From IMG/VR virus record IMGVR_UViG_3300032282_002631, positions 1-43,999 of that record: a DNA stretch of 43,999 nucleotides. One strand, given 5' to 3'. The DNA is from a virus. Below, in pieces: positions 4,527 through 43,999 of this stretch. Below the pieces are notes generated by a model, which was given only the letters and a program-made list of their open reading frames with translations, was not told the DNA's origin and did not search any database. The translations under genes and the position numbers were made by a program. Position 1 is the stretch's first letter, and the number at the start of each line of letters is the position of its first letter.

Positions 4527-4616
4527 TCTCCCTAGCCTCATAAAGTCTGCCCCTGAGTTCCTGCTAACTCTGTCGGGCGCGTGTAGGGGCGGCGCGCTCG
4601 ACGCTATCCTGTACTT
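4527..4616 (+). promoter_or_regulatory. 90-bp intergenic region with candidate -10 box
   Basis: No gene is seen here. TATCCT at 4605-4610 lies 6 nt before the GTG start at 4617, the same spacing as TACCCT before the protease, consistent with leaderless transcription. A weak inverted repeat (CCCCT / AGGGG) occurs, but no terminator with a T-run. The assignment rests on spacing only. Confidence 0.3.
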
Positions 4617-6598: not shown

Positions 6599-6847
6599 AT
6601 GTCCGATGAAGTAAAGGCTGTAAAAGCCGACGATAAGCCCAAGAAGAGCACGCCGAAGGAAGGCGTAAAAGTCTCTTTGAACCCCGATTTTGATGCCGAT
6701 GGTCCTGTATTTGTGTCCGTCGAAGGCGTCGATGCCGCTGATGCAGATGCAGACGGCCGTGTAGAGATTACCTCTGCTGGCACTACCGTCTCTTCTCAGA
6801 CCGCTTCGGCCCTGTCTGCCTCTCCTGCTGTTAAGGTTGGTTCGTAA
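6599..6847 (+). CDS. Small acidic protein in tail operon
   Basis: 82 aa, start ATG at 6599. An AGGG lies 5 nt upstream of the ATG, and a TATTCT box lies 8 nt upstream. The product has a Lys-rich start (KAVKADDKPKKSTPKEGVK) and an Asp/Ala repeat (GVDAADADADG), then an Ala/Ser-rich end. Its TAA directly abuts the tube-protein ATG. No family recognised; position suggests a tail accessory or small decoration protein. Confidence 0.6.
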   Translation: MSDEVKAVKADDKPKKSTPKEGVKVSLNPDFDADGPVFVSVEGVDAADADADGRVEITSAGTTVSSQTASALSASPAVKVGS

Positions 6848-23394: not shown

Positions 23395-23486
23395 CTAATC
23401 CTCCAAGACTCGATAGCGATTGCCAGCAGCCAAAGCACAATCCACAGAGCAAGCGTTCCAGCGGCAAACCATTCAACGGCTCCCAT
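23391..23486 (-). CDS. Tiny membrane protein (31 aa)
   Basis: ATG at 23486 lies inside the end of the upstream gene, and the TGA overlaps the polymerase start (ATGA). The product has one hydrophobic segment (WFAAGTLALWIVLWLLAIAI) and a basic tail (ESWRIR), so it is a predicted single-span membrane protein. Tight junctions support it; function unknown. Confidence 0.55.
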   Translation of the reverse strand: MGAVEWFAAGTLALWIVLWLLAIAIESWRIR

Positions 23487-24195
23487 TACGCGCTCCTTCG
23501 ATTGCGTGAAACACTCGGTCGTCGTTGCCAAGCCCTTCCTGCGCAAATACCATCAGGCAAAAGCAATGCCAAGCAGCGTGGGCCAAGTGCATCCGGCCGG
23601 ACTCAGGATCAATGTCTTCACCACTAGCCCAAGCCATCATGTGTCGCTGCATCGCGCCGTAGGAGAGCGACCAGTCGTAGCCTCGAATGTAGTTGTGATC
23701 ATCATACTTCGTAGCGCCAAAACCATAGACCTTTGAAAGTTCCAGCAGTGGGCCGGGCGGAATCAAATCCATGCGAGCGGGCTTGCGGCCCTTCTGCCCG
23801 CCTGTGTCGGAAGTGACGCGCTCTTCCTCGTTGAATTCTGTAAGTTCGCCGTTCTCGTAGCGGTAGATTGGAAGGTTGCACAGGCTGGCTACATGCAATT
23901 CCAACTGCGCGCCTCGTGAACCTTCCCAGCCCGGCAGCAGCGCAATGGCGTCGATCTCGTCGGCCACTAACTTCACATCACGGGCAAGGAAGTCTCCCCA
24001 AGTCTCGCCGTTTAGCGAGCCTTTTATATGCCCATCCTTGCTCGCAAGAGCAGCGGCGCGGGTATCCTTGTCATCAAGTTCTGCGGGGCTGACCGCGTCG
24101 TAACCAGCCTCACGCAGCCGCTTCACAGCCTCGTCAAACGCGGGGATGTTGAACTGCGGAATTCCTGACATTGGCCCTGCAATGTAAATCTTCAT
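23473..24195 (-). CDS. DUF4406 (nucleoside deoxyribosyltransferase-like) fused to dATP/dGTP diphosphohydrolase-type domain
   Basis: 240 aa. ATG 24195 with Shine-Dalgarno TTAGGAG is preferred over an upstream in-frame start. Residues 1 to about 125 match DUF4406 (MKIYIAGPMSGIPQFN, ARDVKLVADEIDAIALLPGW). Residues about 135-230 (RKPARMDLIPPGPLLELSKV, GFGATKYDDHNY, MMAWASGEDIDPESGRMH, LAHAAWHC) match the DUF5664 / dATP-dGTP diphosphohydrolase N-terminal family, which includes MazZ. It probably adjusts nucleotide pools for phage DNA synthesis. MazZ relatives occur in 2-aminoadenine phages, but PurZ is not in this window. Confidence 0.78.
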   Translation of the reverse strand: MKIYIAGPMSGIPQFNIPAFDEAVKRLREAGYDAVSPAELDDKDTRAAALASKDGHIKGSLNGETWGDFLARDVKLVADEIDAIALLPGWEGSRGAQLELHVASLCNLPIYRYENGELTEFNEEERVTSDTGGQKGRKPARMDLIPPGPLLELSKVYGFGATKYDDHNYIRGYDWSLSYGAMQRHMMAWASGEDIDPESGRMHLAHAAWHCFCLMVFAQEGLGNDDRVFHAIEGARNGSR

Positions 24196-24203
24196 CCAGT
24201 CTC

Positions 24204-25358
24204 CTAAGTAATCGCCAGTGGCGAAGTTTCGTCGTCTCCGCTTTCGCTGCCAAGATAACAGTAGTGCATCTGGCCTGCGTCGGAGCGTTTCTTGATCTTG
24301 CCCTCTTCGGAGAGCGCGTTGGCCCACTTGCGCACCTTCTGATATGACTCGCCAAGTTCGTCCTTCATCTCAGCCAGCGTCATGTATTGGCCGGGGAACT
24401 GAGACAGCAAGCCCAGCACTTCGCGCTCGCCCTCTTCCTCTGCAACATGGCGATACGACCACTTCTCACGGTCAAACTCTAGCCGCACAGGGGCAGGGGC
24501 TTCCGCAAATCTAGCCTTGATCCAACTGAGTTCGCGCTGCCGACCCCCCTTGACAGGCGACCAGCGCTCCATCACAGCGGCTACGGCTTCCATCACTGAC
24601 GAACCTCGCGCTGCTGACATCGGATCAGTATTCTCGTTGCCGCCGGACTTATTTTCATGGTGCGTGAGCAGCGCAGCACAATCGTGCCGGTTAGCAATGT
24701 CGGAGATTGCGTCAAGCACATTAGCCATCTCAGTCGAAGAGTTCTCGTCGCCTCGCCACAAACCTCGGAACGGCTCAATAAATACGATGTCGCAGTTAGT
24801 CTCCCCAACGGCTCTGTCCACGAGAGCAATGTTCTCAGGATCGTCCAACTTCAAGCCTGACCATCCGCCATCGCCCCAAATAATGACATTCTCTCGTGCT
24901 AGGGCAATTTCGTCGGCCGTGAAATCGTTCTCCATCAGGATCGTGCGCAGCACGGTCTGGAAATGGCCGGGTGCGCCTTCGTTCTCAATGATTAGCACTC
25001 TAAGCGGGCCGACCGGCTTCATCAGGTCGGGCAACTCGTCCACCAGAGGCTTACCCATCGACCACCGAACGAGTCTGTTAAGCGATACGGCAGTCTTGCC
25101 TTTACCGCCTCGTGCAATCATCGCGCTGATAGCGCCGCGTGCGACAAGACCCGGCTCGACCAACATTGGAGGCAGTTCAATCTCGGTGTCTAGGTATTCG
25201 CCTAGTGTCGAGACCGGCGGCTTACCAATCTCCTGATCCGGCAGTTGCGCCAGCACCAGTTGCTTCAACTGCTGCATAGCCTTTTGGCGATCTTCGTCGG
25301 AACTCAGTCCGGCGAGAAAGTCACCGTAGTCAGTCGTCTCCTTGCTCAGATCAGTCAT
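24204..25358 (-). CDS. RecA-like ATPase (RepA/helicase type) with C-terminal winged helix
   Basis: 384 aa from ATG 25358, which overlaps the preceding stop in an 8-nt ATGACTGA junction; a TTG further up is less likely. Walker A ARGGKGKT (82-89), Walker B CDIVFIEPF (189-197), and LLTHHENKSGG like the RepA/DnaB-type sensor. The C-terminal part (GQYMTLAEMKDELGESYQKV RKW) is a winged-helix-like domain. It is probably the replicative helicase or its loader, given the adjacent primase and polymerase. Confidence 0.78.
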   Translation of the reverse strand: MTDLSKETTDYGDFLAGLSSDEDRQKAMQQLKQLVLAQLPDQEIGKPPVSTLGEYLDTEIELPPMLVEPGLVARGAISAMIARGGKGKTAVSLNRLVRWSMGKPLVDELPDLMKPVGPLRVLIIENEGAPGHFQTVLRTILMENDFTADEIALARENVIIWGDGGWSGLKLDDPENIALVDRAVGETNCDIVFIEPFRGLWRGDENSSTEMANVLDAISDIANRHDCAALLTHHENKSGGNENTDPMSAARGSSVMEAVAAVMERWSPVKGGRQRELSWIKARFAEAPAPVRLEFDREKWSYRHVAEEEGEREVLGLLSQFPGQYMTLAEMKDELGESYQKVRKWANALSEEGKIKKRSDAGQMHYCYLGSESGDDETSPLAIT

Positions 25359-25581
25359 CGAGATCGATCTTACCAAGTTCAGCCCGTGTCAAAATTTCAC
25401 GAGTGACCCGATCTGCTTCTTCTGGAAACTCAACAATGATCTCGTCAGCGGCTGCAAGCAACTCAGTTGCCCCGGCTTGCACGACGGCATCATCTGGAGC
25501 ATAAACTCTGCAAATTGCGACAATGTGCAGCGCCTCGCTGAGTGTAAGCATCGGCCTTACGAATGGTTTATCGTCCGGCAT
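25351..25581 (-). CDS. Small helical protein, replication region
   Basis: 76 aa from ATG 25581, which lies 14 nt inside the end of the primase gene. The product is mostly helical (LTLSEALHIVAICRVYAPDD, ELLAAADEIIVEFPEEADRV) with an acidic end. No family recognised. It couples primase to the ATPase gene by overlapping both. Confidence 0.6.
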   Translation of the reverse strand: MPDDKPFVRPMLTLSEALHIVAICRVYAPDDAVVQAGATELLAAADEIIVEFPEEADRVTREILTRAELGKIDLDD

Positions 25582-26530
25582 TGCCACTCGCAATCGGGCA
25601 GTCCGGCGATACATACGGAGCCATCACAGGATCATCGCAGCCAGTAGAAGTGTATTTGCCAGCCAGCGCGTTCTCAAACTGACGGTCAACTTCGCTGTCG
25701 GTCATCGGCTTCTGGCCGCAACTATTGACTTCGTGCACCCAGTGCCTTGCCTCGTCCACGGTCATATCGCGGTAATTGAGCAGTTGCCGCGCAAGATTGA
25801 ACAGCACGACAGCGCGATGCCCCGGTGTAAGAGGATTCGTCTCACGGTTCTGAATGATGTGCTGAGCACACGAATGAAGCACAGGAGCCTCGCCAAACTC
25901 AGACGACTTGACACGGTCGCTCGGCGGTACGGCTCCAAGAGCGCGAGCGCGCCTAACCCAACTATCTGAGTCTTGTAGATTTGCCGTGGCGTCCTCCACA
26001 AAGTCTTCCACAGACACGGGCTGGTCATCGTCTCCAAGAATCGGGCGGCTACTTCCGTGATAAGGCAAGTTGATGTAGTTTCCAACCATACCTTCTCGCA
26101 GAGCGTCTTGTTTTGGAAAGATTTCTACATCTCGACGGCCAACGGCTTCGGTAGCGCCTTTCAGGACTGCACGCACTGCCCAAGCGGGAGCGGCTGACGC
26201 AAAGAACACCCAAACATGAGCGTTGCCGGAGCGAGAGCGCTCGATGTAAGACTTGCCCGGCACCAGTTTCTGCATGGTGCGTGCCAACTCAAAGTTTGGC
26301 TCGTCGAGATCAATCGCTGCAAAGTTCACTTCCTCAGTGTCAAGCATAGGAAAAATACCTATGCCGGTTCCGTCACCGTGGAGATGCTGATTGTAGTGCT
26401 GCTGCGTAACCTTGTGCCGCTCAACAGGGCCAGCGCCGGTGCCTACTGCATCTGTGCGTCCGGCAAAGAGGCTGTGAAAACCTACAAGCGTTGCGGGGTC
26501 AATCTTTGGCAACTTCAATTTCTCCTTCAT
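25568..26530 (-). CDS. Archaeo-eukaryotic-type primase (prim-pol)
   Basis: 320 aa. AEP catalytic pattern: FAAIDLDEPN (D74, D76), SGNAHVWVFF (101-110) and DVEIFPKQ (E136), then GNYINLPYHGSSRP, as in TOTE-type and plasmid/phage prim-pols. The C-terminal helical part (PGHRAVVLFNLARQLLNYRD ... DSEVDRQFENA) resembles PriCT domains. It would synthesise primers for the family A polymerase. It overlaps the gene on each side. Confidence 0.82.
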   Translation of the reverse strand: MKEKLKLPKIDPATLVGFHSLFAGRTDAVGTGAGPVERHKVTQQHYNQHLHGDGTGIGIFPMLDTEEVNFAAIDLDEPNFELARTMQKLVPGKSYIERSRSGNAHVWVFFASAAPAWAVRAVLKGATEAVGRRDVEIFPKQDALREGMVGNYINLPYHGSSRPILGDDDQPVSVEDFVEDATANLQDSDSWVRRARALGAVPPSDRVKSSEFGEAPVLHSCAQHIIQNRETNPLTPGHRAVVLFNLARQLLNYRDMTVDEARHWVHEVNSCGQKPMTDSEVDRQFENALAGKYTSTGCDDPVMAPYVSPDCPIASGNAGR

Positions 26531-26781
26531 TTCTTTCTCCTTCGAATCTTTGGCAACTTAGGTTTAGGGGCAGCCTTCCAGACCTCCTCGATGTCTCGGT
26601 AATCTTGCAGCGGTAGAAGCAGCGCTGATTCCAGCACGCCATCGACCTGTCCTTCTTTTCGAATCGTTTCGAGCAGTGCGTTCTTGCTCGGCACGCCAGT
26701 TGTCATGGCGGTGTGTGCTGCCCCGATCCTTTCGTTCTCGTCAAGGTCGAGTTCTTCACTTAGAAACGCTGGTTCTTCCAC
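26527..26781 (-). CDS. Hypothetical protein before the primase
   Basis: 84 aa; GTG at 26781, 5-6 nt after AGGAAGG. Acidic N-terminal half (EEPAFLSEELDLDENERIG) and a very basic C-terminus (KAAPKPKLPKIRRRKK). The TGA overlaps the primase ATG (ATGA). No family recognised; it may be a primase accessory protein. Confidence 0.6.
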   Translation of the reverse strand: MEEPAFLSEELDLDENERIGAAHTAMTTGVPSKNALLETIRKEGQVDGVLESALLLPLQDYRDIEEVWKAAPKPKLPKIRRRKK

Positions 26782-26893
26782 TGCATCCTTCCTCTCCGTT
26801 GAAAATAATGGCTAGACACCCACCCGACTAGCCGCTCCGAGTCCTACGCAGGAGACGCGATGCCAGCGCCTCGGAGACCCACACTTGTTCCTG
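26782..26893 (-). promoter_or_regulatory. 112-bp structured intergenic region
   Basis: No gene is seen. On the - strand CTCCGAG pairs with a later CTCGGAG, and GGCTAG / CTAGCC forms a second hairpin followed by ATTATTTTC. It lies between the 265-aa gene and the primase group, so it may be a terminator or attenuator with a promoter downstream. The exact role cannot be decided from sequence. Confidence 0.35.
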
Positions 26894-27691
26894 CTAAACG
26901 TCGATGCCTCCGGCTGGAGTCTTCGGCTTCTCGGACTTGCCATCCGCCAACTGCTCGTCGCCGGTCAGTTGGAAGGCTGCGCTCTGCGCTTCGAGCGCGA
27001 GAGTCTGAGCCTGAGAGATTTCCTCCGCAGAAGTCTGACGACCCTGCGTAGCCTTGACTACATAGAACGGACGCTGCTGCTTATCCTGTCGGAGTTCAGC
27101 CTCCAACTTGATTGCAGCGTTCCACGGAGACCTGTTGCCAAACGAGATCAGTGTGTTGATCTTGCGGGCAGCCGGTGCCGATGTGCGCATCAGAGAGACA
27201 CGAACCGGGATACCGGGGTCGTCCAGAAGGAATCCGATGTAGTTGTGAGTCGTCGTGATCGACGGGCCACGGCCCCACTCGATCTCGCCAGCGTTCACAC
27301 GCTCGCGGTAAGACTCCTCTGCGTCGGGGATGTCCACAAACTTCTGACCGGCATACTGCGCGGGCCAAGTGGACGGTGCGGTGTCGCCGCCTGCAACAAA
27401 GGTGCGTCCCTCAAACTCGCCCTCGCGGGGGGCGAAGAAACGGCCTCGGAAGTAGTGGCAGACAACCAACTCAATTTCAGAACCGAGGTCTTCGCCAGTG
27501 AGCGTGTTCACGAAATGCCCAGACTCTGCATCTCCGTCTGTGACCTCGCGGCTCAACTGCTGCGTGACCTTGATTACTGGAAGTTGAAGGTCTTCCTTGT
27601 GGATACCGGCCAGTGCGCCTGCGGCAAGTTCTTCGTCGCGCTTCGCTAGGTCGGTGTTTGTCTCTGTGGTGGTGCTGACTTCTTTACTCAT
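26894..27691 (-). CDS. Phage replication-region protein, possibly ssDNA-binding
   Basis: 265 aa. The N-terminal part (LQLPVIKVTQQLSREVTDGDAESGHFVNTLTGEDLG) is a pattern I associate with phage proteins annotated as hypothetical or ssDNA-binding-like. Strand-rich middle (EIELVVCHYFRGRFF) and an acidic, Ala/Gln-rich end. First gene of the replication group downstream of a TTGACA-N7-TATCAT signal. Its likely high dose and position fit an SSB-type role, but the assignment is tentative. Confidence 0.5.
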   Translation of the reverse strand: MSKEVSTTTETNTDLAKRDEELAAGALAGIHKEDLQLPVIKVTQQLSREVTDGDAESGHFVNTLTGEDLGSEIELVVCHYFRGRFFAPREGEFEGRTFVAGGDTAPSTWPAQYAGQKFVDIPDAEESYRERVNAGEIEWGRGPSITTTHNYIGFLLDDPGIPVRVSLMRTSAPAARKINTLISFGNRSPWNAAIKLEAELRQDKQQRPFYVVKATQGRQTSAEEISQAQTLALEAQSAAFQLTGDEQLADGKSEKPKTPAGGIDV

Positions 27692-27727
27692 GTGCGTTCT
27701 CGCTTTCTCGCTTTGCGTGTATTTTCG

Positions 27728-27746
27728 ATGATACTAGCCCTGTCAA
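27728..27746 (-). promoter_or_regulatory. TTGACA-N7-TANNNT promoter-like element (TATCAT)
   Basis: On the - strand TTGACA (27746-27741), 7 nt, then TATCAT (27733-27728), 36 nt before the ATG at 27691. It overlaps the stop codon of the upstream gene. It shares exact spacing with six elements at 37-41 kb. Because TTGACA is only 7 nt from the TANNNT box, this is not a normal -35/-10 pair. Confidence 0.5.
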
Positions 27747-28024
27747 GCAGACTGGGCTTTGACTCCTGCGTAGCCCCCGATGGCGGTGATAATCCAGCCG
27801 CCTCCGACTGCTTCGCGGAAACTTATGTCGTGGCCTGCAATGAGATCGACGCCGATCCACATACTCAGTGACGCGGCTGCCAAAATCACAACGCTGACTA
27901 ATAGCCCCAAGACTAGCAACGCGGCCGGATGTCTCTTTTCGAGTGGCTCAACTTCTTGCTCGTAGTCATAAACGCTTTCATCGTGCTCTTCGAAGATCGG
28001 CTCTCCGTTTGATCCAAATTGCAT
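27743..28024 (-). CDS. Membrane protein, two predicted spans
   Basis: 93 aa; ATG 28024 overlaps the preceding stop (TAATG). Acidic cytoplasmic-like N-terminus (EEHDESVYDYEQEVEPLEKR), a long hydrophobic segment (AALLVLGLLVSVVILAAASL) and a second (GGGWIITAIGGYAGV). Function unknown. Confidence 0.65.
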   Translation of the reverse strand: MQFGSNGEPIFEEHDESVYDYEQEVEPLEKRHPAALLVLGLLVSVVILAAASLSMWIGVDLIAGHDISFREAVGGGWIITAIGGYAGVKAQSA

Positions 28025-28446
28025 TAGTCGCCCTTTCGTGTGACGGTTATGTATCTGCGTGCATTGAAGTCCACGCCATCTGGCAACGCTTCTCCTCGTT
28101 GCAGACGGTCGCGGACTTCTTCATTTAGTGCACGCTTACGAATTTCTGGAACGCCAAGCATACCTTGACCAAGCCCTGCGGCTTCAAGTGATTCGACGGC
28201 GGCCTCTTTGTCCACAATGCGGGCAGTGATAGTCTCGCGGCGCTGCAACTGCACGGTTCCATAGCCTTCGCCCAAGTCCAGTGTGACGGTCTTGATATCT
28301 CCCAACTCGTCAGACAACTCCATCCAGAACGCCTGCTCTTCATCAGCGTAAGCACGCGCTGCTCTTTCAGCATCTTTCTCTAGACGGTTCTTCTCGTCTT
28401 TTAGGCTGACGAGTCGGCGTGCGCGACTGTCAATGCGCTCACTCAT
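28024..28446 (-). CDS. Coiled-coil protein, unknown (Gam/Gp157-like layout)
   Basis: 140 aa. The start is at ATG 28446, inside an 8-nt ATGAGTGA overlap with the upstream gene; a longer in-frame reading is less likely. A basic coiled coil (RARRLVSLKDEKNRLEKDAE) is followed by strands (IKTVTLDLGEGYGTVQLQRR) and a VRDRLQRGEALPDGV end. Coiled coil then a 'YGTVQLRRR' strand pair recalls Gam- or Gp157-type phage proteins, but I cannot assign it. Confidence 0.55.
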   Translation of the reverse strand: MSERIDSRARRLVSLKDEKNRLEKDAERAARAYADEEQAFWMELSDELGDIKTVTLDLGEGYGTVQLQRRETITARIVDKEAAVESLEAAGLGQGMLGVPEIRKRALNEEVRDRLQRGEALPDGVDFNARRYITVTRKGD

Positions 28447-28654
28447 TCGAATCCTCCACCAGTTTTCTAACTTTCGATACCACTTCGCCAATGAGCCGCA
28501 CCGATTCGTCGCAGTTATGCGCTGTGCGCTCCAGTAGTGGCTTCTCAGGGTGATCTTCGTTTAGACCATCGAAAGCAGTTTCGCGGGCAGCGGCCAACGC
28601 CTTCTCAGCCTCTCCCAACTGATGCAGCAGAAGTTCTGGTAGAGATACGCTCAC
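28439..28654 (-). CDS. Small helical protein (71 aa)
   Basis: GTG at 28654 overlaps the stop of the zinc-ribbon gene (GTGA). Helical (LLLHQLGEAEKALAAARETA, IGEVVSKVRKLVEDSNE). The ATGAGTGA junction couples it to the next gene. No recognised family. Confidence 0.55.
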   Translation of the reverse strand: MSVSLPELLLHQLGEAEKALAAARETAFDGLNEDHPEKPLLERTAHNCDESVRLIGEVVSKVRKLVEDSNE

Positions 28655-28812
28655 TTGATGACTGCTCCTGTTCGATAGCCCTTGATAAGACAGTCGCCAC
28701 ACTCGCGCTGCTCAGTATCTACGGCACGCAAGCCGTGGCTGTCAATCGCCATAATCTCCCACTTCTTTTCGCACTTTGGACATTTCAGTTCTATCCATAC
28801 TCGCTTAGTCAT
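28651..28812 (-). CDS. Zinc-ribbon protein (53 aa)
   Basis: ATG 28812 overlaps the helicase stop (ATGA); the TGA overlaps the next GTG. Two Cys pairs, CPKC (residues 11-14) and CGDC (38-41), separated by 23 residues, make a zinc ribbon. It contains WEIMAIDSHGLRAVDTEQRE between the knuckles. Probably a DNA- or protein-binding accessory of the helicase. Confidence 0.65.
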   Translation of the reverse strand: MTKRVWIELKCPKCEKKWEIMAIDSHGLRAVDTEQRECGDCLIKGYRTGAVIK

Positions 28813-30482
28813 CGGTCTCCTAACACGGCTGCTGTTACTAGCCGCTTGAAGTCGTTTGCTTTGGCTACCTTACCATCGTCCACCGTGCCGGGGCAGCGGA
28901 GAACAAGAATGGTGACTGGCTGCTCTTGCCCGATACGATGCAGCCGATCTTCGGCCTGCTCGTTCATCGCAGGAACCCAGTCCTCGTCCACAAATATAGC
29001 AGTGTCAGCACGGGTAAGAGTCAAACCCACGCCGCCTTTCGCAATCGTGGCGATGACATGATCGAGGTCGCCGTCCTGAAAGCCGTCCTTGACAGGATCA
29101 GGGTTATCGCTTCCGGCAATCGTGCCAATCTTCTGTGCGGGCTTGCCCTTCTCCAACGACTCGGCAAGGTTGCGTGCGGTATCGACAAACCAAGTAAAAA
29201 TGACAAAAGGCTTGCCGGGGTTGTCTCTAATGATTTCCTCAGCGGCTGACGCTTTTGCTGCCGAAGTTACCTGTCGCAACTTTGCAATGCGTGCGCCTGC
29301 GTTTGGCACAAGCCCTTCCAACTTCGAAAGCGGCATACCGGCAAGGGCGTCTGCATCGAGATCGTCGTGATCCTCCACGAACTGCGCTATGTCCAAAAAT
29401 AATGCTTCCTCCACTTCGCGGTAAAGTTTTCTCTGTTTAGAGTCGAGTTCGACAGGGATAACCTGACGAGTTTTCTCAGGAAGTTCTGTCAGCACATCTT
29501 TCTTCGTTCGACGCACCATCTTATCGGACAACTCAAAGCGCAACTGATCGGCATTACGCACGCCAGTCATCACGGTTCCGTAGCGCGTGTTGTATTCGTC
29601 CACATAAGAGTAGTGAAACGGCCAAAAGCCTGTGTATTGCTCAGGTCGCAGCCATTTCAGAATCGACCACAACTCATCTGGTGAGTTCATAATCGGCGTT
29701 CCTGTAAGCGCAATCTGCAAGGGAGCCGTGAACTTCCACAGTCCCTTAGTCTGCTTGGCCTTGCGATTCTTGGCGCGATGCGCCTCGTCTGCAATCACAG
29801 CCGTCCAGTCACGCTTCGCCAACTCTTTGTGCAGCGGGTCGCGCCAAGCCGACTCCCAGTTCACAATGACAAAGCCGCCAGTCTCCTCGGTCTCGGCCAA
29901 CTGCTTGAGCCGCGCCGCCGGATTGCGTCCGTCAATAACTGCAATAGGCTGATCGCCTAGCCACTTGTTGATCTCATTCTGCCAAGTGCCTCGCAGAGAC
30001 TTAGGGCAGACAATCAATTGATGAGTATTTTTATCAACATTGTTGCGAATCTTCCATTCCTCGACGGTTGCCAGCGATTGCAGAGTCTTGCCAGTTCCCA
30101 TCTCGTCGGCCAACAAGGTCTTCGGATGATCGACAATAAAATCAACAGCGGCTCTCTGGTAAGGGCGCAACTTGTCAGACCACGGAAGTTCCAACTTTGC
30201 GTCAGTTGGCAGCGCAGTGACAAGGCTCTCGGCAATCTCGGCGGTATGCGCTCGCACCGCCTGCTGCACATCGTTATCGGCAACAGGTTCCAACATCTGC
30301 ATCACTCGAAGCGCAGTTGCTGCGTCGTCCGGCAACTCCCAACGCTTCTCAACTGGATCGTAGCGACGGCCCGGAACTGACTTGACTCGCGCTAGCGCGT
30401 CGGAAAACTCCGGGCCTTTCATTCCGCCCAGCACGATGTAGAGAACGCCCTTCTCGGCGTCCCGTTTCAGATACGCGGGCAC
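28809..30482 (-). CDS. SNF2-family DNA helicase/translocase
   Basis: 557 aa, GTG start overlapping the preceding stop (TAGTG). SF2 motifs in order: LRPYQRAAVDFI (Q-like), Walker A ADEMGTGKT (125-133), DEAH (232-235), LTGTP (259-263), and the C-terminal EDRLHRIGQ (511-519). The N-terminal ~95 residues resemble the HARP-type region found in phage and SMARCAL1-like proteins. It may remodel replication forks or branched DNA. Confidence 0.92.
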   Translation of the reverse strand: MPAYLKRDAEKGVLYIVLGGMKGPEFSDALARVKSVPGRRYDPVEKRWELPDDAATALRVMQMLEPVADNDVQQAVRAHTAEIAESLVTALPTDAKLELPWSDKLRPYQRAAVDFIVDHPKTLLADEMGTGKTLQSLATVEEWKIRNNVDKNTHQLIVCPKSLRGTWQNEINKWLGDQPIAVIDGRNPAARLKQLAETEETGGFVIVNWESAWRDPLHKELAKRDWTAVIADEAHRAKNRKAKQTKGLWKFTAPLQIALTGTPIMNSPDELWSILKWLRPEQYTGFWPFHYSYVDEYNTRYGTVMTGVRNADQLRFELSDKMVRRTKKDVLTELPEKTRQVIPVELDSKQRKLYREVEEALFLDIAQFVEDHDDLDADALAGMPLSKLEGLVPNAGARIAKLRQVTSAAKASAAEEIIRDNPGKPFVIFTWFVDTARNLAESLEKGKPAQKIGTIAGSDNPDPVKDGFQDGDLDHVIATIAKGGVGLTLTRADTAIFVDEDWVPAMNEQAEDRLHRIGQEQPVTILVLRCPGTVDDGKVAKANDFKRLVTAAVLGDR

Positions 30483-30866: not shown

Positions 30867-30999
30867 TTTGCTCGGCCTCCAAGATGACAGAGATCAGCAA
30901 CTCGACCGTTGGATAGAGCGCAGGATTAGAACGCGATGCCGCGACAAGGCACTCTTTCAGCATTTCTATTTGAGTGTCGTTTAGTTCCACAGTAGTCAT
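30859..30999 (-). CDS. Small helical protein (46 aa)
   Basis: ATG 30999 overlaps the metallophosphoesterase stop (ATGA). A longer in-frame reading to 31110 overlaps that gene heavily and is rejected. Sequence MTTVELNDTQIEMLKECLVA is mostly helical. Function unknown. Confidence 0.5.
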   Translation of the reverse strand: MTTVELNDTQIEMLKECLVAASRSNPALYPTVELLISVILEAEQNG

Positions 31000-32910: not shown

Positions 32911-32965
32911 CCGGGATTTTATTACACAGGGGGTCTATATAGACCCCCAGTGTGTAATAACCCGG
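32911..32965. repeat. Long interrupted palindrome, candidate operator or origin element
   Basis: The core GGGGG-TCTATATAGA-CCCCC (32929-32948) is a perfect 20-bp palindrome. Around it TTATTACACA (32919-32928) pairs with TGTGTAATAA (32951-32960) after a 2-nt bulge, and CCGGG (32911-32915) with CCCGG (32961-32965) after a 3-nt bulge. In total 25 base pairs form one hairpin or cruciform. It lies in a gene-free region of about 157 bp (32871-33027) just upstream of the HTH gene. It could be an operator, terminator or replication origin. Confidence 0.7.
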
Positions 32966-37051: not shown

Positions 37052-37080
37052 TGTCGTTCCTTTCTGTTTCGTTGCTGTCT

Positions 37081-37311
37081 TTACAGACTACCATCGTTGT
37101 CAAGTCCATCGCACCAGCAGACCAGCACGCCCCATTCGGCAGGGTCTGGACACTCGTAAGCGTTCTCGCTCCCGCAGTCTGGGCAGGTTCGCACCTCGTC
37201 TGGTCGCACCGCTAACATCGTTCCGTCCTTAGCCTTGTGCCAACCGATTACGCAATCTCCACAAGCGCACGCGGCTGTGCTGCGTCCTGTCTTGTCGCAA
37301 TACTCAGTCAT
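37081..37311 (-). CDS. Cys-rich zinc-binding protein (76 aa)
   Basis: ATG 37311 overlaps the previous stop (ATGA). Cysteines: CACGDC, CPDC, and VCWC, arranged as two possible knuckles (C15/C17/C20 and C43/C46). C-terminal LDNDGSL is encoded by the promoter-like element that serves the next gene. No family recognised. Confidence 0.6.
   Translation of the reverse strand: MTEYCDKTGRSTAACACGDCVIGWHKAKDGTMLAVRPDEVRTCPDCGSENAYECPDPAEWGVLVCWCDGLDNDGSL
37085..37103 (-). promoter_or_regulatory. TTGACA-N7-TANNNT element (TAGTCT)
   Basis: TTGACA (37103-37098), 7 nt, TAGTCT (37090-37085), 33 nt before the ATG at 37051. The leader continues AAAGACAGCAAC and AGAAAGGAA. It overlaps the last codons of the upstream gene. 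Confidence 0.55.
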
Positions 37312-38690: not shown

Positions 38691-38715
38691 TTTGCTGTCC
38701 TTTCTGTTGCTGTCC

Positions 38716-39060
38716 TTAGACATTACCATCGCTGTCAAGGGCACGATACTCTCTGCAAAGATAGTTCGCGCCGCTCTGCTGCTCCCACTGAACAACACTA
38801 CACCCGTTGTCAATAGCAGCGTCGGCAACTTTTTTCGCCTCTATCTCACACTCTTGTAAGTCATCAGAGATTACTTCGATCTGCACTCCATTTTCCTGCA
38901 CACCTTTCCAGACACCGGTAGTCTCTTTCAGCGTCCCGCCCCTCAGACGACTTAGCAGCGACTCGCCAAACTTAGTAGCCACTGCTCTGCTGTCTGCATA
39001 GCGTGAAATAGTCAGCGTGATCTTATGCTCGGCTGTCCATTCTGTGAATCCGTTATCCAT
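38716..39060 (-). CDS. Hypothetical protein (114 aa)
   Basis: ATG 39060, AAAGGG upstream. Alpha/beta (EWTAEHKITLTISRYADSRA; ECEIEAKKVADAAIDNGCSV). C-terminal LDSDGNV is encoded by the promoter-like element of the next gene. Possibly a dsRNA-binding-like alpha/beta fold, but this is a guess; no family is recognised. Confidence 0.6.
   Translation of the reverse strand: MDNGFTEWTAEHKITLTISRYADSRAVATKFGESLLSRLRGGTLKETTGVWKGVQENGVQIEVISDDLQECEIEAKKVADAAIDNGCSVVQWEQQSGANYLCREYRALDSDGNV
38720..38738 (-). promoter_or_regulatory. TTGACA-N7-TANNNT element (TAATGT)
   Basis: TTGACA (38738-38733), 7 nt, TAATGT (38725-38720), 29 nt before GTG 38690, followed by CTAAGGACAGCAAC and AGAAAGGA. It overlaps the 3' end of the upstream gene. 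Confidence 0.55.
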
Positions 39061-39550: not shown

Positions 39551-39578
39551 CGGTTCCCCTTTCGATTGCTGTCTTTGT

Positions 39579-39597
39579 AAGATACCACCGTTGTCAA
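39579..39597 (-). promoter_or_regulatory. TTGACA-N7-TANNNT element (TATCTT)
   Basis: TTGACA (39597-39592), 7 nt, TATCTT (39584-39579), 28 nt before ATG 39550. Followed by ACAAAGACAGCAA and GAAAGGGG. It starts directly after the upstream stop codon. Confidence 0.58.
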
Positions 39598-39796: not shown

Positions 39797-39833
39797 GATC
39801 TTGCCTTTCTTTTGTTTCTGTTGTTGTCCCTGC

Positions 39834-39852
39834 ACATTAGCAGGGCGGTCAA
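39834..39852 (-). promoter_or_regulatory. TTGACC-N7-TAATGT element with hairpin
   Basis: TTGACC (39852-39847), 7 nt, TAATGT (39839-39834), 37 nt before ATG 39796. CCCTGC and GCAGGG around TAATGT form a 6-bp hairpin (39828-39845). The segment of about 50 bp is almost identical to that at 40650-40703. Confidence 0.55.
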
Positions 39853-40646: not shown

Positions 40647-40684
40647 TTCGCTTCCCTTTCTTTTGTTTTTGTTGCTGTCCCTGC

Positions 40685-40703
40685 ACATTAGCAGGGCTGT
40701 CAA
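40685..40703 (-). promoter_or_regulatory. TTGACA-N7-TANNNT element (TAATGT) with hairpin
   Basis: TTGACA (40703-40698), 7 nt, TAATGT (40690-40685), 38 nt before ATG 40646. CCCTGC / GCAGGG flank TAATGT (hairpin 40679-40696). The leader reads GGGACAGCAAC, A-rich, AGAAAGGGAAG. Confidence 0.58.
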
Positions 40704-41068: not shown

Positions 41069-41108
41069 ATAGTAAGTCGATCAATATAGTCAAGAATAGG
41101 TGCAAAAG

Positions 41109-41140
41109 AAAACCCCGCGCCGATAGCAGCGCGGGGTTTT
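41109..41140 (-). terminator. Strong intrinsic terminator ending the minihelix gene array
   Basis: AAAACCCCGCGC (41109-41120) pairs with GCGCGGGGTTTT (41129-41140), 12 bp with an 8-nt loop. In - strand RNA it is followed by UUUUCUUUU in effect (stem U-run plus downstream). It starts 4 nt after the stop of the last array gene (41145). It can work in both directions. Confidence 0.85.
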
Positions 41141-41144
41141 ACTC

Positions 41145-41366
41145 TTACTGAGACTGACGAACAGGCCAGAACGCGGGGTCGTGGGGGTCGTCGAAATCGA
41201 CGACATCGCCATTCATTGCATCGACCACTGCGATCTCATACACGGATTCCAGCATCGACCGTCTTTCCTCATGGGGGAGAGAAATCGCTTCTCTCACAAT
41301 CGGGGCTGCCATTTCCGCGCCGACGATACTCGCCAACGCTTTGACCAACTGTGCTGATGTTCTCAT
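41145..41366 (-). CDS. Array gene 9: hypothetical protein (73 aa)
   Basis: ATG 41366 with AGAAAGGG upstream. Helical (TSAQLVKALASIVGAEMAAP; EERRSMLESVYEIAVVDAMN) with an acidic end (DFDDPHDPAFW). Last gene before the terminator; the only one with no minihelix after it. No family recognised. Confidence 0.62.
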   Translation of the reverse strand: MRTSAQLVKALASIVGAEMAAPIVREAISLPHEERRSMLESVYEIAVVDAMNGDVVDFDDPHDPAFWPVRQSQ

Positions 41367-41394
41367 GTCTTACCCTTTCTCTTGTTTTCACTGT

Positions 41395-41442
41395 CCCCAG
41401 ATCGGGGAAGGTCTGCGCAGGGAATCGAACCCTGCGCAGACC
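41395..41442 (-). repeat. tRNA-minihelix-like element, copy 1
   Basis: GGTCTGCGCAGGG and CCCTGCGCAGACC (41410-41442) form 13 bp around the loop TTCGATT in - strand RNA, then CCCC-GATCT-GGGG (41407-41395). Compared with the other copies an A-T pair is G-C on both arms, a compensatory change, and the second hairpin has a different loop but the same stem. Confidence 0.85.
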
Positions 41443-41449
41443 AGATAGA

Positions 41450-41863
41450 TCAGCAGAAAGTGTCTGCACAATACTCTGAGCAAAACTCGATCTCGTCGTA
41501 TTCGACATGATACCACCGCTGTCTAGCGTCCGGCATGAGATGCCCACAGGTTTCACAGGCAGGCATTTCATCTTCCAACCGTTTTGCCCATCGCTGCAAC
41601 TCGTCGGCAGACCATGAATCTGCTGCGCTGGTCTGGTATCGACGCGATGCTGTCGTGATCGGAACATCTTCACCTAGTTCCGCTGACCACTGCTCTGCTA
41701 TCGACAGGGCTGTTTCGACTGCCTCTGATGGTAAATCGAACTCCACCATCTCATCTGCGAACTTAGGTGTCAGCGCATCAGGGCTGACACAATCGAACTC
41801 CGATGAGATTTCTACCGCTTCCGCGCCGTCAGGCCAATACTTTTGCCTCGTCACTACATACAT
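41450..41863 (-). CDS. Array gene 8: protein with Cys knuckles (137 aa)
   Basis: ATG 41863, AAAGGGAAC upstream. Residues near the end (CETCGHLMPDARQRWYHVEY; FCSEYCADTFC) form a treble-clef or zinc-ribbon-like pattern (CxxC...CxxxC). The N-terminal part is acidic (GAEAVEISSEFDCVSPDALT). Function unknown. Confidence 0.62.
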   Translation of the reverse strand: MYVVTRQKYWPDGAEAVEISSEFDCVSPDALTPKFADEMVEFDLPSEAVETALSIAEQWSAELGEDVPITTASRRYQTSAADSWSADELQRWAKRLEDEMPACETCGHLMPDARQRWYHVEYDEIEFCSEYCADTFC

Positions 41864-41892
41864 AATAGTTCCCTTTCTCTTGTTTTCTCTGT

Positions 41893-41939
41893 CCCCTAAT
41901 GGGGAAGGTCTGCACAGGGAATCGAACCCTGTGCAGACC
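41893..41939 (-). repeat. tRNA-minihelix-like element, copy 2
   Basis: Consensus copy: 13-bp hairpin with loop TTCGATT (41907-41939), then CCCC-ATTA-GGGG (41904-41893), in - strand orientation. It lies 5 nt after the stop of array gene 7 and 30 nt before the ATG of array gene 8. Confidence 0.88.
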
Positions 41940-41944
41940 AGACA

Positions 41945-42277
41945 TCAGCCGAGCAGATTCTTTTTCAGTTGATCGGCTGCATCAACTGCCTCTCCTACTG
42001 CATCTTCATCGATGCTGATGTAAGAGAGATCAGAAACGCCTGACTGAATATCCGAAACAGCAGACTCGATGTCATTACTGACATTCGATGCTGCCGACTC
42101 GATACGCTCCACTGCGGAAACAAGTTCCGTCAGTAGTTCGTCAGTCCTGCCATCATCTGATGCAGTGATCGACTGAGCCGGAATCGCCTCTACGATCTTT
42201 TCAGCCAGCGGCGCGAGAAACTCCGCCAACGCCACATGAACTGCATTAACTACTTCCTGTTTTGTGTTTTCTGTCAT
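41945..42277 (-). CDS. Array gene 7: helical repeat protein (110 aa)
   Basis: ATG 42277, AAAGGGTAG upstream. Amphipathic helices with heptad-like Asp/Ser/Ile spacing (AVERIESAASNVSNDIESAV; SDIQSGVSDLSYISIDEDAV), a predicted coiled coil. No family recognised. Confidence 0.6.
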   Translation of the reverse strand: MTENTKQEVVNAVHVALAEFLAPLAEKIVEAIPAQSITASDDGRTDELLTELVSAVERIESAASNVSNDIESAVSDIQSGVSDLSYISIDEDAVGEAVDAADQLKKNLLG

Positions 42278-42306
42278 GTTACTACCCTTTCTCTTGTTTT
42301 CTATGT

Positions 42307-42353
42307 CCCCTAATGGGGAAGATCAGCACAGGGAATCGAACCCTGTGCAGACC
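42307..42353 (-). repeat. tRNA-minihelix-like element, copy 3 (degenerate base)
   Basis: Loop TTCGATT and the inner stem are intact, but two changes (GATCAGC instead of GGTCTGC) break two pairs near the open end (42321-42353). CCCC-ATTA-GGGG (42318-42307) is intact. Confidence 0.82.
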
Positions 42354-42360
42354 AGATAGA

Positions 42361-42624
42361 TCATCTGTCCTGATGATACACGAATCTGCAAGTTCGCGCT
42401 CTAAACATCAGGGCTGCCATCTTAGCAGTGGCAAACAGTTCTGTCGATACAACGCCATTAGGACTGTAAGATAGCAGAACTGAGCCGATTCTTGCGATCA
42501 GCCGGTCGCCATGTTTCAGACCTGATGCCCATTCACATTCTTTCACTTCACCAGCCATGAGCCGATCATGCAGGCTTTTTGCGCTCGATGAATCGAACCG
42601 CAGAAAAGATAGATCATTTACCAC
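42361..42624 (-). CDS. Array gene 6: hypothetical protein (87 aa)
   Basis: GTG 42624 with AAAGGGAACT upstream. A longer reading to 42882 translates the repeat and the next gene and is rejected. Contains SLHDRLMAGEVKECEWASGL and SVLLSYSPNGVVSTELFATA. No family recognised. Confidence 0.6.
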   Translation of the reverse strand: MVNDLSFLRFDSSSAKSLHDRLMAGEVKECEWASGLKHGDRLIARIGSVLLSYSPNGVVSTELFATAKMAALMFRARTCRFVYHQDR

Positions 42625-42653
42625 GATAGTTCCCTTTCTCTTGTTTTCACTGT

Positions 42654-42700
42654 CCCCTAATGGGGAAGGTCTGCACAGGGAATCGAACCCTGTGCAGACC
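42654..42700 (-). repeat. tRNA-minihelix-like element, copy 4
   Basis: Consensus copy: 13-bp hairpin, loop TTCGATT (42668-42700), then CCCC-ATTA-GGGG (42665-42654). It starts 7 nt after the stop of array gene 5. Confidence 0.88.
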
Positions 42701-42707
42701 AGATAGA

Positions 42708-42830
42708 TCACGAGCCGACGATCCGGAACCCCTGCATCTTTGCACGGTATTTCGCAACCGACAGGTCGGGAGCCTGAACCTTGATCGTCAGACCTGAAAC
42801 CGTTCTGATGGTGAATAGGTGATCTTTCAC
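42708..42830 (-). CDS. Array gene 5: 40-aa protein related to 38556-38690
   Basis: GTG 42830 with AAAGGGAACT upstream. Sequence includes HLFTIRTVSGLTIKVQAPDL and VAKYRAKMQGFRI, paralogous to the product at 38556-38690. It sits in a minihelix cassette, whereas the relative has a TTGACA-N7-TANNNT element. Confidence 0.6.
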   Translation of the reverse strand: MKDHLFTIRTVSGLTIKVQAPDLSVAKYRAKMQGFRIVGS

Positions 42831-42859
42831 GATAGTTCCCTTTCTCTTGTTTTCTCTGT

Positions 42860-42906
42860 CCCCTAATGGGGAAGGTCTGCACAGGGAATCGAACCCTGTG
42901 CAGACC
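42860..42906 (-). repeat. tRNA-minihelix-like element, copy 5
   Basis: Consensus copy: 13-bp hairpin, loop TTCGATT (42874-42906), then CCCC-ATTA-GGGG (42871-42860). Confidence 0.88.
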
Positions 42907-42909
42907 AGA

Positions 42910-43119
42910 TTATCGAACCGTTACGGTTTCGACTTTCGCGCCTGCCTGATATGCCCATTCGGTTTTATCCGTAAAGACCACCAGAGTTGCCAGCCCAAAA
43001 CCTGTCGGTTTCGTGAAGGCAACTTGCAGCCAATCGGCAGGCTTTCCGTCATCGCTCCAAGCCTGCACGATGGCGTGATCGCCATGCAGCCGCTCTACTC
43101 TCACCATCTGAGAGATCAT
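42910..43119 (-). CDS. Array gene 4: hypothetical protein (69 aa)
   Basis: ATG 43119, AAAGGGAACTATT upstream; a longer reading to 43239 runs through the repeat and is rejected. Beta-rich with Trp (HAIVQAWSDDGKPADWLQVA; ATLVVFTDKTEWAYQAGAKV). Function unknown. Confidence 0.6.
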   Translation of the reverse strand: MISQMVRVERLHGDHAIVQAWSDDGKPADWLQVAFTKPTGFGLATLVVFTDKTEWAYQAGAKVETVTVR

Positions 43120-43148
43120 AATAGTTCCCTTTCTCTTGTTTTCTCTGT

Positions 43149-43195
43149 CCCCTAATGGGGAAGGTCTGCACAGGGAATCGAACCCTGTGCAGGCC
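43149..43195 (-). repeat. tRNA-minihelix-like element, copy 6
   Basis: Loop and stem as in the consensus except one base change near the open end (GGCCTGC instead of GGTCTGC in - strand RNA, one C-A mismatch) at 43163-43195. CCCC-ATTA-GGGG follows (43160-43149). Confidence 0.86.
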
Positions 43196-43198
43196 AGA

Positions 43199-43426
43199 CT
43201 ACTGCGACCGGCTGAAAATCGAACAGGTCTTGCCTGCATAAAACACCATTGGCGAATCTAGTTCCTCACACCAGATCGCCACGCCTGACAGGTCGTATCC
43301 GGTCGGCTGAATGTCGATCACTTCCCTGTAATCGGTTTCGTAATCGTCAGACCATGAGAGCATTACATCGCCAACCTGAATCTCACAGGCCTGAACTTTT
43401 GTTTTGGACTGCTGGTGAATCTTCAC
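43199..43426 (-). CDS. Array gene 3: hypothetical protein (75 aa)
   Basis: GTG 43426, AAAGGGAACT upstream. Contains VQACEIQVGDVMLSWSDDYE and GVAIWCEELDSPMVFYAGKT, an SH3/beta-barrel-like strand pattern. No family recognised. Confidence 0.6.
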   Translation of the reverse strand: MKIHQQSKTKVQACEIQVGDVMLSWSDDYETDYREVIDIQPTGYDLSGVAIWCEELDSPMVFYAGKTCSIFSRSQ

Positions 43427-43455
43427 GATAGTTCCCTTTCTCTTGTTTTCTCTGT

Positions 43456-43502
43456 CCCCTAATGGGGAAGGTCTGCACAGGGAATCGAACCCTGTGCAGA
43501 CC
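43456..43502 (-). repeat. tRNA-minihelix-like element, copy 7
   Basis: Consensus copy: 13-bp hairpin, loop TTCGATT (43470-43502), then CCCC-ATTA-GGGG (43467-43456). It lies 6 nt after the stop of array gene 2. Confidence 0.88.
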
Positions 43503-43508
43503 AGACGA

Positions 43509-43661
43509 TCAGCCTAGCCTGTTTAGGAAATGCTGAATCGATTTATCGATCTTTGCACGCTCTGCTGCTGTCTTTGCCTGTTTCCGCTCTGCTCTCAGTT
43601 CTCGCAACCTGCGCTCGTATGTTGCGACCAGAGAGGCGTTCACATAATCGATCATTGACAT
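43509..43661 (-). CDS. Array gene 2: helical basic protein (50 aa)
   Basis: ATG 43661, AAAGGG upstream. One long charged helix (TYERRLRELRAERKQAKTAA; ERAKIDKSIQHFLNRLG), a predicted coiled coil. An overlapping frame at 43543-43770 translates the repeat and is rejected. Confidence 0.6.
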   Translation of the reverse strand: MSMIDYVNASLVATYERRLRELRAERKQAKTAAERAKIDKSIQHFLNRLG

Positions 43662-43688
43662 TTTTTCCCTTTCTCTTGTTTTCTCTGT

Positions 43689-43735
43689 CCCCTAATGGGG
43701 AAGGTCTGCACAGGGAATCGAACCCTGTGCAGACC
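43689..43735 (-). repeat. tRNA-minihelix-like element, copy 8
   Basis: Consensus copy: 13-bp hairpin, loop TTCGATT (43703-43735), then CCCC-ATTA-GGGG (43700-43689). Confidence 0.88.
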
Positions 43736-43741
43736 AGACGA

Positions 43742-43915
43742 TCAGAAATCGTCGAATCCCTGTTCGGCATCTTCCTGTTCGATGCTGTCGTGATACGAGA
43801 CGGAATCGGCTGTCTGATATTCCTGCTCGCTTTCGATTTCCCCGATCAAATCTTCTTGATCGGGATTCAGGCGATCTGCCTGTTCAGCAGCAGTCGGAAA
43901 ATCTCTGTCGATCAT
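43742..43915 (-). CDS. Array gene 1 in window: acidic protein (57 aa)
   Basis: ATG 43915, AGAAAGGG upstream; a longer reading to 43966 runs into the repeat and is rejected. Very acidic (PDQEDLIGEIESEQEYQTAD; SIEQEDAEQGFDDF). It could mimic DNA or bind a basic partner, but nothing specific is seen. Confidence 0.6.
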   Translation of the reverse strand: MIDRDFPTAAEQADRLNPDQEDLIGEIESEQEYQTADSVSYHDSIEQEDAEQGFDDF

Positions 43916-43943
43916 GTCTAACCCTTTCTCTTGTTTTCTCTGT

Positions 43944-43990
43944 CCCCTAATGGGGAAGGTCTGCACAGGGAATCGAACCCTGTGCAGACC
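43944..43990 (-). repeat. tRNA-minihelix-like element, copy 9 (window edge)
   Basis: Consensus copy: 13-bp hairpin, loop TTCGATT (43958-43990), then CCCC-ATTA-GGGG (43955-43944). Bases 43999-43997 read TGA on the - strand at the distance where other array genes stop, so another cassette probably continues past the edge. Confidence 0.86.
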
Positions 43991-43999
43991 CGATGTTCA

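Follow-up and report, generated by a model that had tools for sequence, protein, structure and literature searches.

Punctuation of long transcripts by transfer RNAs (tRNAs) is textbook knowledge for mitochondria, and in phage T7 stem-loops cut by RNase III split the polycistronic RNA between early genes. The t-elements of plant mitochondria are gene-adjacent tRNA-like structures that set mRNA ends through cleavage by RNase P and RNase Z (PMC11658184). The T stem-loop is bound by bacterial RNase P, whose proposed ruler for the cleavage site is the distance of 12 base pairs (bp) between the T-loop and the 5' end of a tRNA, and hairpins combining acceptor stem, T stem and T-loop are efficient substrates (PMC11143913); a 3' RCC(A) sequence strengthens the binding (PMC12710915). 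We analysed the viral contig IMGVR_UViG_3300032282_002631 (43,999 bases, actinophage-like genes; hereafter the window), in which an element repeated between small genes forms an RNA structure with a T-loop on a helix of tRNA-like length. The element lies between the stop codon of one gene and the start codon of the next, and comparable elements recur in viruses with no detected protein kinship to the window phage. We favour, as the rather more probable reading, that these are minimal mimics of the top half of a tRNA, with 12-13 bp of helix under a T-loop, and that they punctuate one polycistronic early transcript, which would be cut at each of them.

The locus shares traits with several described systems. 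As in T7, stem-loops lie between early phage genes, but a different enzyme would act on them, and the T7 sites have longer, irregular stems and no tRNA mimicry. Like the plant mitochondrial t-elements, which are cut by RNase P and RNase Z to yield mRNA ends (PMC11658184), they are gene-adjacent and tRNA-like and may be cut in the same way; unlike them, they are viral and lack an anticodon arm, and the window's form is a fused 13-bp minihelix. By analogy, the element would work like a t-element while standing outside that family as defined, that is, homologues of tRNA genes in plant mitochondria. The model minihelices of RNase P research, also about 12 bp topped by a T-loop, are cut by the E. 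coli enzyme (PMC11143913), but they bear a 3' RCCA that the window elements do not have. Viral hammerhead ribozymes, found in HF1/HF2 and others, are likewise intergenic cleavage devices, placed immediately ahead of the start codon of a viral gene (PMC3088659); they cleave themselves, whereas the mimic would need a host enzyme. In cluster K mycobacteriophages, the start-associated sequence (SAS) and its extended form (ESAS) are also repeated elements with inverted repeats and immediately precede the start codons of numerous small non-structural genes, but the ESAS has imperfect arms, variable spacers, no RNA pairing, SigA-like promoters and no T-loop (PMC3203893, PMC11373665). No ESAS promoter hexamers, which are spaced 17-18 bp apart, were found inside the window elements, and the 13-bp SAS GGGATAGGAGCCC adjoining the start codon is not present; in its place the nine leaders read AGAAAGGG, most of them with AACTAT.

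The element matches no Rfam family. A preliminary description of this DNA, made from the letters alone, had stated that no phage operon organised in this way was known, and a search of the open literature, with subscription journals and preprints outside it, found none either. Searching by blastn with one element returned only tRNA genes and chance matches, and among isolated phages there was no near-DNA match to the right part of the window. The closest isolated relatives of the window DNA polymerase are those of Microbacterium and Arthrobacter phages, at about 28% identity.

A nine-copy array of T-loop stems in the window

Nine near-identical blocks are interleaved with small open reading frames (ORFs) on the minus strand at positions 41373-43990. 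The preliminary description had reported nine stems bearing the exact T-loop UUCGAUU on this strand, and this was borne out: nine exact GGGTTCGATTCCC cores are found on the minus strand from 41420 to 43980, whereas 0.73 were expected by chance with up to 2 mismatches and nine copies occurred in none of 100 shuffles. The copies, each read from the T-loop stem through hairpin 2 and an A-rich leader to a Shine-Dalgarno (SD) sequence, are the following:

43922..43990, minus strand: element copy 1, T-loop stem 43990-43958, hairpin 2, A-rich leader, SD; contig end just upstream
43667..43735, minus strand: element copy 2, T-loop stem 43735-43703, hairpin 2, leader, SD
43434..43502, minus strand: element copy 3, T-loop stem 43502-43470, hairpin 2, leader, SD
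43127..43195, minus strand: element copy 4, stem 43195-43163 with one C.A mismatch, hairpin 2, leader, SD
42838..42906, minus strand: element copy 5, T-loop stem 42906-42874, hairpin 2 at about 42871-42860, leader, SD
42632..42700, minus strand: element copy 6, T-loop stem 42700-42668, hairpin 2, leader, SD
42285..42353, minus strand: element copy 7, stem 42353-42321 with one U.U mismatch and one G.U pair, hairpin 2, leader, SD
41871..41939, minus strand: element copy 8, T-loop stem 41939-41907, hairpin 2, leader, SD
41373..41442, minus strand: element copy 9, stem 41442-41410 with a compensated A-U to G-C change, hairpin 2 with loop GATCT, leader, SD

The order within a block is CUGGUCUGCACAGGG-UUCGAUU-CCCUGUGCAGACC-UU-CCCC-AUUA-GGGG-ACAGAGAAAACAAG-AGAAAGGG-(AACUAU)-start. 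The conserved unit is a block of about 70 nucleotides (nt), and not the 47-48 nt first proposed, because hairpin 2 (CCCC-ATTA-GGGG), ACAGAGAAAACAAG and AGAAAGGG belong to it. A 13-bp stem had been ascribed to every copy; seven of the nine stems are indeed perfect over 13 bp, and copies 4 and 7 carry one mismatch each. The predicted folds are markedly more stable than those of shuffled sequences (z of -4 to -5.8), and the 7-nt loop, closed by a G-C pair, matches UUCRANY in the nine copies and in all clade relatives aligned. Upstream, the distance from the stop codon to the first base of the stem is 3-7 nt in 8 of 8 measurable cases; downstream, the start codon follows the T-loop stem by about 40 nt. 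The SD motif AGAAAGG complements the 3' end of actinobacterial 16S ribosomal RNA (rRNA), CCUUUCU.

Other assignments were examined for the same positions. ARAGORN called no tRNA at any window element and Rfam gave no match there at the gathering score, so that the two programs together reveal no detectable tRNA derivation of the stems. The stem is followed by UUCCCC and not by a U-run, as an intrinsic terminator would require. Promoter-like sites number 4 in the region against 4.4 expected, with none within the elements. The contig ends 9 nt past the outermost copy (window 43990-43999). Since it terminates inside the repeat array, the real array is probably longer than nine, the assembly having broken at the repeat with further copies missing; for comparison, the related contig L209 holds 14 elements. 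The simplest reading of the layout is one polycistronic transcript carrying nine marks.

Conservation of the structure in relatives and recurrence in other viruses

By their helicases, G001 (96% identity) and G002 (92% identity) are close relatives of the window phage. Two further contigs, L209 and L223, were found by a scan for a T-arm plus CCCC..GGGG; L209 comes from the same metagenome as G001 and is collinear with the window and G002. Its 14 T-loop elements lie on one strand and have three kinds of fused stem, GGCCCGCCGGGGG/CCCCCGGCAGGUC with one C.A mismatch, UCUAGGGGCAGGG/CCCUGCUCCUAGA with 13 bp and AGCGCCGUCGGG/CCCGGCGGCGCU with 12 bp. The sequences of these stems are unlike the window's, but UUCGAUU is present in all and the same hairpin 2, leader and SD come after all but one. 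Both L209 and L223 retain the loop, the length of 12-13 bp and the layout while their stem sequences differ. Most of the genes that the elements separate differ between the window and L209, which makes the element the constant and the genes the variable part of these regions.

Distinct copies from the window, L209 and L223 were aligned to measure covariation. The given structure pairs in 90.7% of the alignment cells, compared to 38-57% when it is slid along the alignment, and changes on both sides of a pair affect 11 pairs and 32 cells, compared to 6.0 and 8.9 in shuffles (0 of 500 reached these values). The 12-13 bp helix equivalent to acceptor plus T stem is preserved by this covariation; the loop is invariant except for one U60 to C change, which the T-loop consensus permits, and RNAalifold independently recovers the same two helices. 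Because the stem sequence is free whereas stem length and loop are fixed, the RNA structure is under selection. These compensated replacements, with T-loop and helix length kept, give good support to the minihelix mimicry put forward in the preliminary description.

For the first L209 element (7218) a split reading is possible, AGGGACU-GGUGUCCCG-GUCGGG-UUCGAUC-CCCGGC-GGUCUCU, in which a GG-bearing linker stands between an acceptor and a T arm. The structural descriptor that we used calls this split form, and the minimum-energy fold favours a D-like hairpin plus T arm. On the split reading, L209 holds both forms, split at 7218 and fused minihelices thereafter, with the same hairpin 2 and leader.

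IMG/VR was scanned for T-arms that precede AGAAAGG and ATG by 30-60 nt, and two further scans added contigs; the contigs from the first scan, and the counts given below where so stated, are among the matches listed. Across the scans a T-loop was required together with an SD, with TGGT plus GGGTGCT, or with the CCCC..GGGG hairpin. At least about ten viruses without detected kinship to the window phage carry non-tRNA elements at the same place, so that what had been taken for an oddity of one phage looks instead like a widespread class, with fuller tRNA-like forms than the window's. tblastn of the window ORFs against fifteen of these contigs gave a single match, capsid-like, in G012. The anatomy is an acceptor strand, a short linker (often with UGGU), a T arm and the second acceptor strand, with no anticodon arm; in several contigs, not all, folding yields the acceptor together with a mini D-like arm (CCC-UGGU-GGG), the T arm and also hairpin 2. 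ARAGORN called no tRNA at these T-arms, and in these contigs only tRNA genes and hammerheads match Rfam at the gathering score. A first covariance model, R1, rested on the acceptor alone, a poor structure, and was left aside.

Counting descriptor matches and long T-loop hairpins together, we obtained 34 sites in the full contigs (26 split-stem sites and 8 window copies, among the matches listed), compared to 0 in reversed sequences and 0-1 in five block shuffles. Among the matches listed, acceptor pairing was found at 41 of 84 distinct non-tRNA T-arm sites, whereas exchanging the upstream halves between contigs gave a mean of 7.3 acceptors and a maximum of 15 in 200 runs. Measured along the 3' strand, acceptor and T helix add up to 12-13 nt at 30 of these 41 listed sites against 36% of null hits, although the split between acceptor and T stem within it is variable (6+6, 7+5, 8+5). 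Helix length and stop-codon distance were not selected by the scans, nor was acceptor pairing, except via GGGTGCT in the second scan. Again among the matches listed, hairpin 2 begins 0-4 nt past the acceptor in 25 of 41 cases, compared to 4.8 in shuffles, and 28 of 41 elements precede a start codon at a distance of -3 to +25 nt from a stop, compared to 9.5% of random positions, two counts that are partly selected since the scans required an SD, TGGT with GGGTGCT, or hairpin 2 beside the T-loop. A GG is present in the linker of 38 of 41 split-stem elements against 30.6 with shuffled linkers, an enrichment so modest that we do not lean on it. Past the acceptor, some of the other viruses have RC (GCU, ACU) and one (G015) has ACCA.

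The hosts are diverse. A virus of Thermosynechococcus (G021) has 13 T-arm sites on one strand, five with long acceptors and eight with shorter or imperfect ones; L050 and L145 are Streptococcus temperate phages bearing such elements; and G020, which also bears them, is similar in DNA to Halorubrum tailed virus 27 and of haloarchaeal type. Such a range of hosts points to machinery common to all cells. In one virus (G005, contig L066) three type II hammerhead ribozymes lie between genes on the minus strand (2310-2371, 4548-4609 and 6647-6708) beside the tRNA mimics. Each terminates close to the following gene, shortly ahead of a purine-rich SD-like stretch, a position shared with the mimics of this virus.

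As a separate observation, G027, the 18.9-kb contig of L195, carries 42 T-arm motifs in one orientation against a single one in the opposite orientation and is probably a large viral tRNA cluster.

Proposed processing by tRNA enzymes and alternative explanations

The preliminary description had supposed that one polycistronic RNA is cut or protected at the mimics, a proposal that would fit the structure and position of the elements. In the processing that we propose, the early operon would be transcribed as one RNA in which each mimic folds, a step that the structural data support, and host tRNA-processing endonucleases would recognise the T-loop and measure the 12-13 bp. RNase P would cut just 5' of the stem, 3-7 nt past the upstream stop codon, and RNase Z about 1 nt 3' of it, so that the downstream mRNA would start with hairpin 2, followed by an unstructured leader and the SD. 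The outcome would be one mRNA per gene with a structured, stabilised 5' end, and a downstream mRNA beginning with the mimic or with hairpin 2 may resist 5'-end-dependent decay. For the window phage we lean towards RNase Z, or both enzymes, over RNase P alone, because no RCC(A) follows the stems.

Several observations weigh against such a cleavage. The bases 3' of the window stems are CUUC or UUCC, with no RCC(A), and the fused 13-bp form has neither a linker nor a D-loop-like partner for the T-loop. G002 spans the equivalent early region with zero T-loop elements, which indicates that they are not essential in this lineage; it is simply without them, and relatives with unpaired or non-T-loop versions, which would have spoken against the mimicry as first described, were looked for among the close relatives and none was seen. 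The selection exerted by the scans on the position and hairpin-2 counts has to be set beside these points. Finally, a stable intercistronic hairpin could act uncut.

This last explanation, in which uncut hairpins stabilise or insulate a polycistronic mRNA by blocking exonucleases or resetting translation and the T-loop is only a compact stable loop, is the strongest competitor, though we consider it unlikely. The very stable folds, their location 3-7 nt from the stop and about 40 nt from the start, and the SD complementary to the 16S rRNA 3' end that comes after them would all suit it. It gives no reason, however, for an exact T-loop on a 12-13 bp helix in viruses without detected kinship, nor does it explain the split forms with acceptor, linker and T-arm or the hammerheads at the same position in G005. 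The T-loop is also the target of TruB and TrmA, and one might suppose that these or other tRNA-binding factors (TrmFO, EF-Tu, the ribosome) modify, sponge or translationally control the RNA without cutting it. Plant mitochondrial t-elements are in fact modified as well as cut (PMC11658184), but one element per gene junction with hairpin 2 right after the acceptor better suits a function at RNA ends, and EF-Tu would find nearly all copies without a CCA end, so that we hold this explanation to be doubtful, and more so than the uncut hairpin.

The other explanations have far less to recommend them. A DNA-level operator or promoter, as proposed for the cluster K ESAS inverted repeats, would account for inverted repeats upstream of early-gene starts (PMC3203893, PMC11373665); it is improbable given that the arms are swapped with compensation while the loop stays fixed, that G.U pairs are tolerated, that the orientation is one-way and that no promoter-like site lies in the elements, whereas the ESAS arms are unable to support RNA pairing (PMC3203893). 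Processing by RNase III follows the same logic as proposed here, with stem-loops between early genes splitting a polycistronic RNA as in T7, but a 13-bp stem is short for this enzyme and a conserved T-loop with a 12-13 bp ruler is foreign to its sites, which places it marginally below the DNA site. That the elements are attP-like tRNA fragments or decayed tRNA genes is the least credible proposal, to be given almost no weight: phages often carry the 3' parts of tRNA genes as attP, of which the T-arm is a common part, yet here 9-14 copies per phage stand between genes with newly invented stems, and ARAGORN sees no tRNA at them.

Cleavage at tRNA mimics remains the reading that we prefer for the window. 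Whether it extends further is in our view evenly balanced: several unrelated lineages of bacterial and archaeal viruses may use their own tRNA punctuation, with anticodon-less mimics (and hammerheads in at least one virus) exploiting the universal tRNA-processing enzymes of the host to give monocistronic mRNAs with structured 5' ends. There is a real chance that the elements represent a general viral mode of gene expression. If the processing is true, they form a large class of RNA elements, as yet unannotated, through which the early operons of many viruses do without extra promoters, they offer ready-made RNA-cutting insulators for synthetic operons across very different hosts, and RNase P or RNase Z becomes a testable step of infection.

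Other candidates were also set aside. The hairpin between Adephagia genes 90 and 91 (17-bp stem, 7-nt loop; PMC11373665) is not a T-loop, the tRNA-like genes of HF2 are attP tRNA fragments outside this class (PMC8707807), and integron attC sites were dropped by eye, the RYYYAAC/GTTRRRY sites being absent.

Genes of the array and neighbouring repeats

The genes that the elements separate, and the end of the array, are as follows:

43742..43915, minus strand: small ORF, 57 amino acids (aa), no family (the family scan used a shorter version)
43509..43661, minus strand: small ORF, 50 aa, no family above cut-off
43199..43426, minus strand: small ORF, 75 aa, no family above cut-off
42910..43119, minus strand: small ORF, 69 aa, no family
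42708..42830, minus strand: small ORF, 40 aa, no family; resembles a G002 ORF by eye
42361..42624, minus strand: small ORF, 87 aa, no family
41945..42277, minus strand: small ORF, 110 aa, weak match to a PHROG of unknown function
41450..41863, minus strand: small ORF, 137 aa, no family above cut-off
41145..41366, minus strand: small ORF, 73 aa, last in the array
41104..41143, minus strand: strong intrinsic-terminator-like hairpin (AAAACCCCGCGC..GCGCGGGGTTTTCTTTT) at the array end, read from the sequence

A search for relatives of two of the array proteins found none. The early genes of G002 (L007, about 23100-30000) are saturated with very many copies of a GAGCTCGAG-type sequence (CTCGAG), unlike the window.

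A second leader repeat, CTTGACA[AG]C..., occurs on the minus strand of the window at 37072-37103, 38707-38738, 39566-39597, 39821-39852 and 40672-40703, each time ahead of a hairpin and an SD-bearing, CAA-rich leader; the motif is also found 5' of two L209 T-loop elements. Its first seven bases match the reverse complement of what we take to be the cluster A stoperator (GGTGGMTGTCAAG). Lastly, a near-perfect palindrome (TTATTACACA..GGGGGTCTATATAGACCCCC..TGTGTAATAA) is present at about 32918-32962 in the window, at 8937-8990 in L209 and at 30941-30994 in G002, within a conserved stretch of about 130 bp that occurs in the middle of the genome and close to where the early operon begins; it is a possible operator, terminator or origin.

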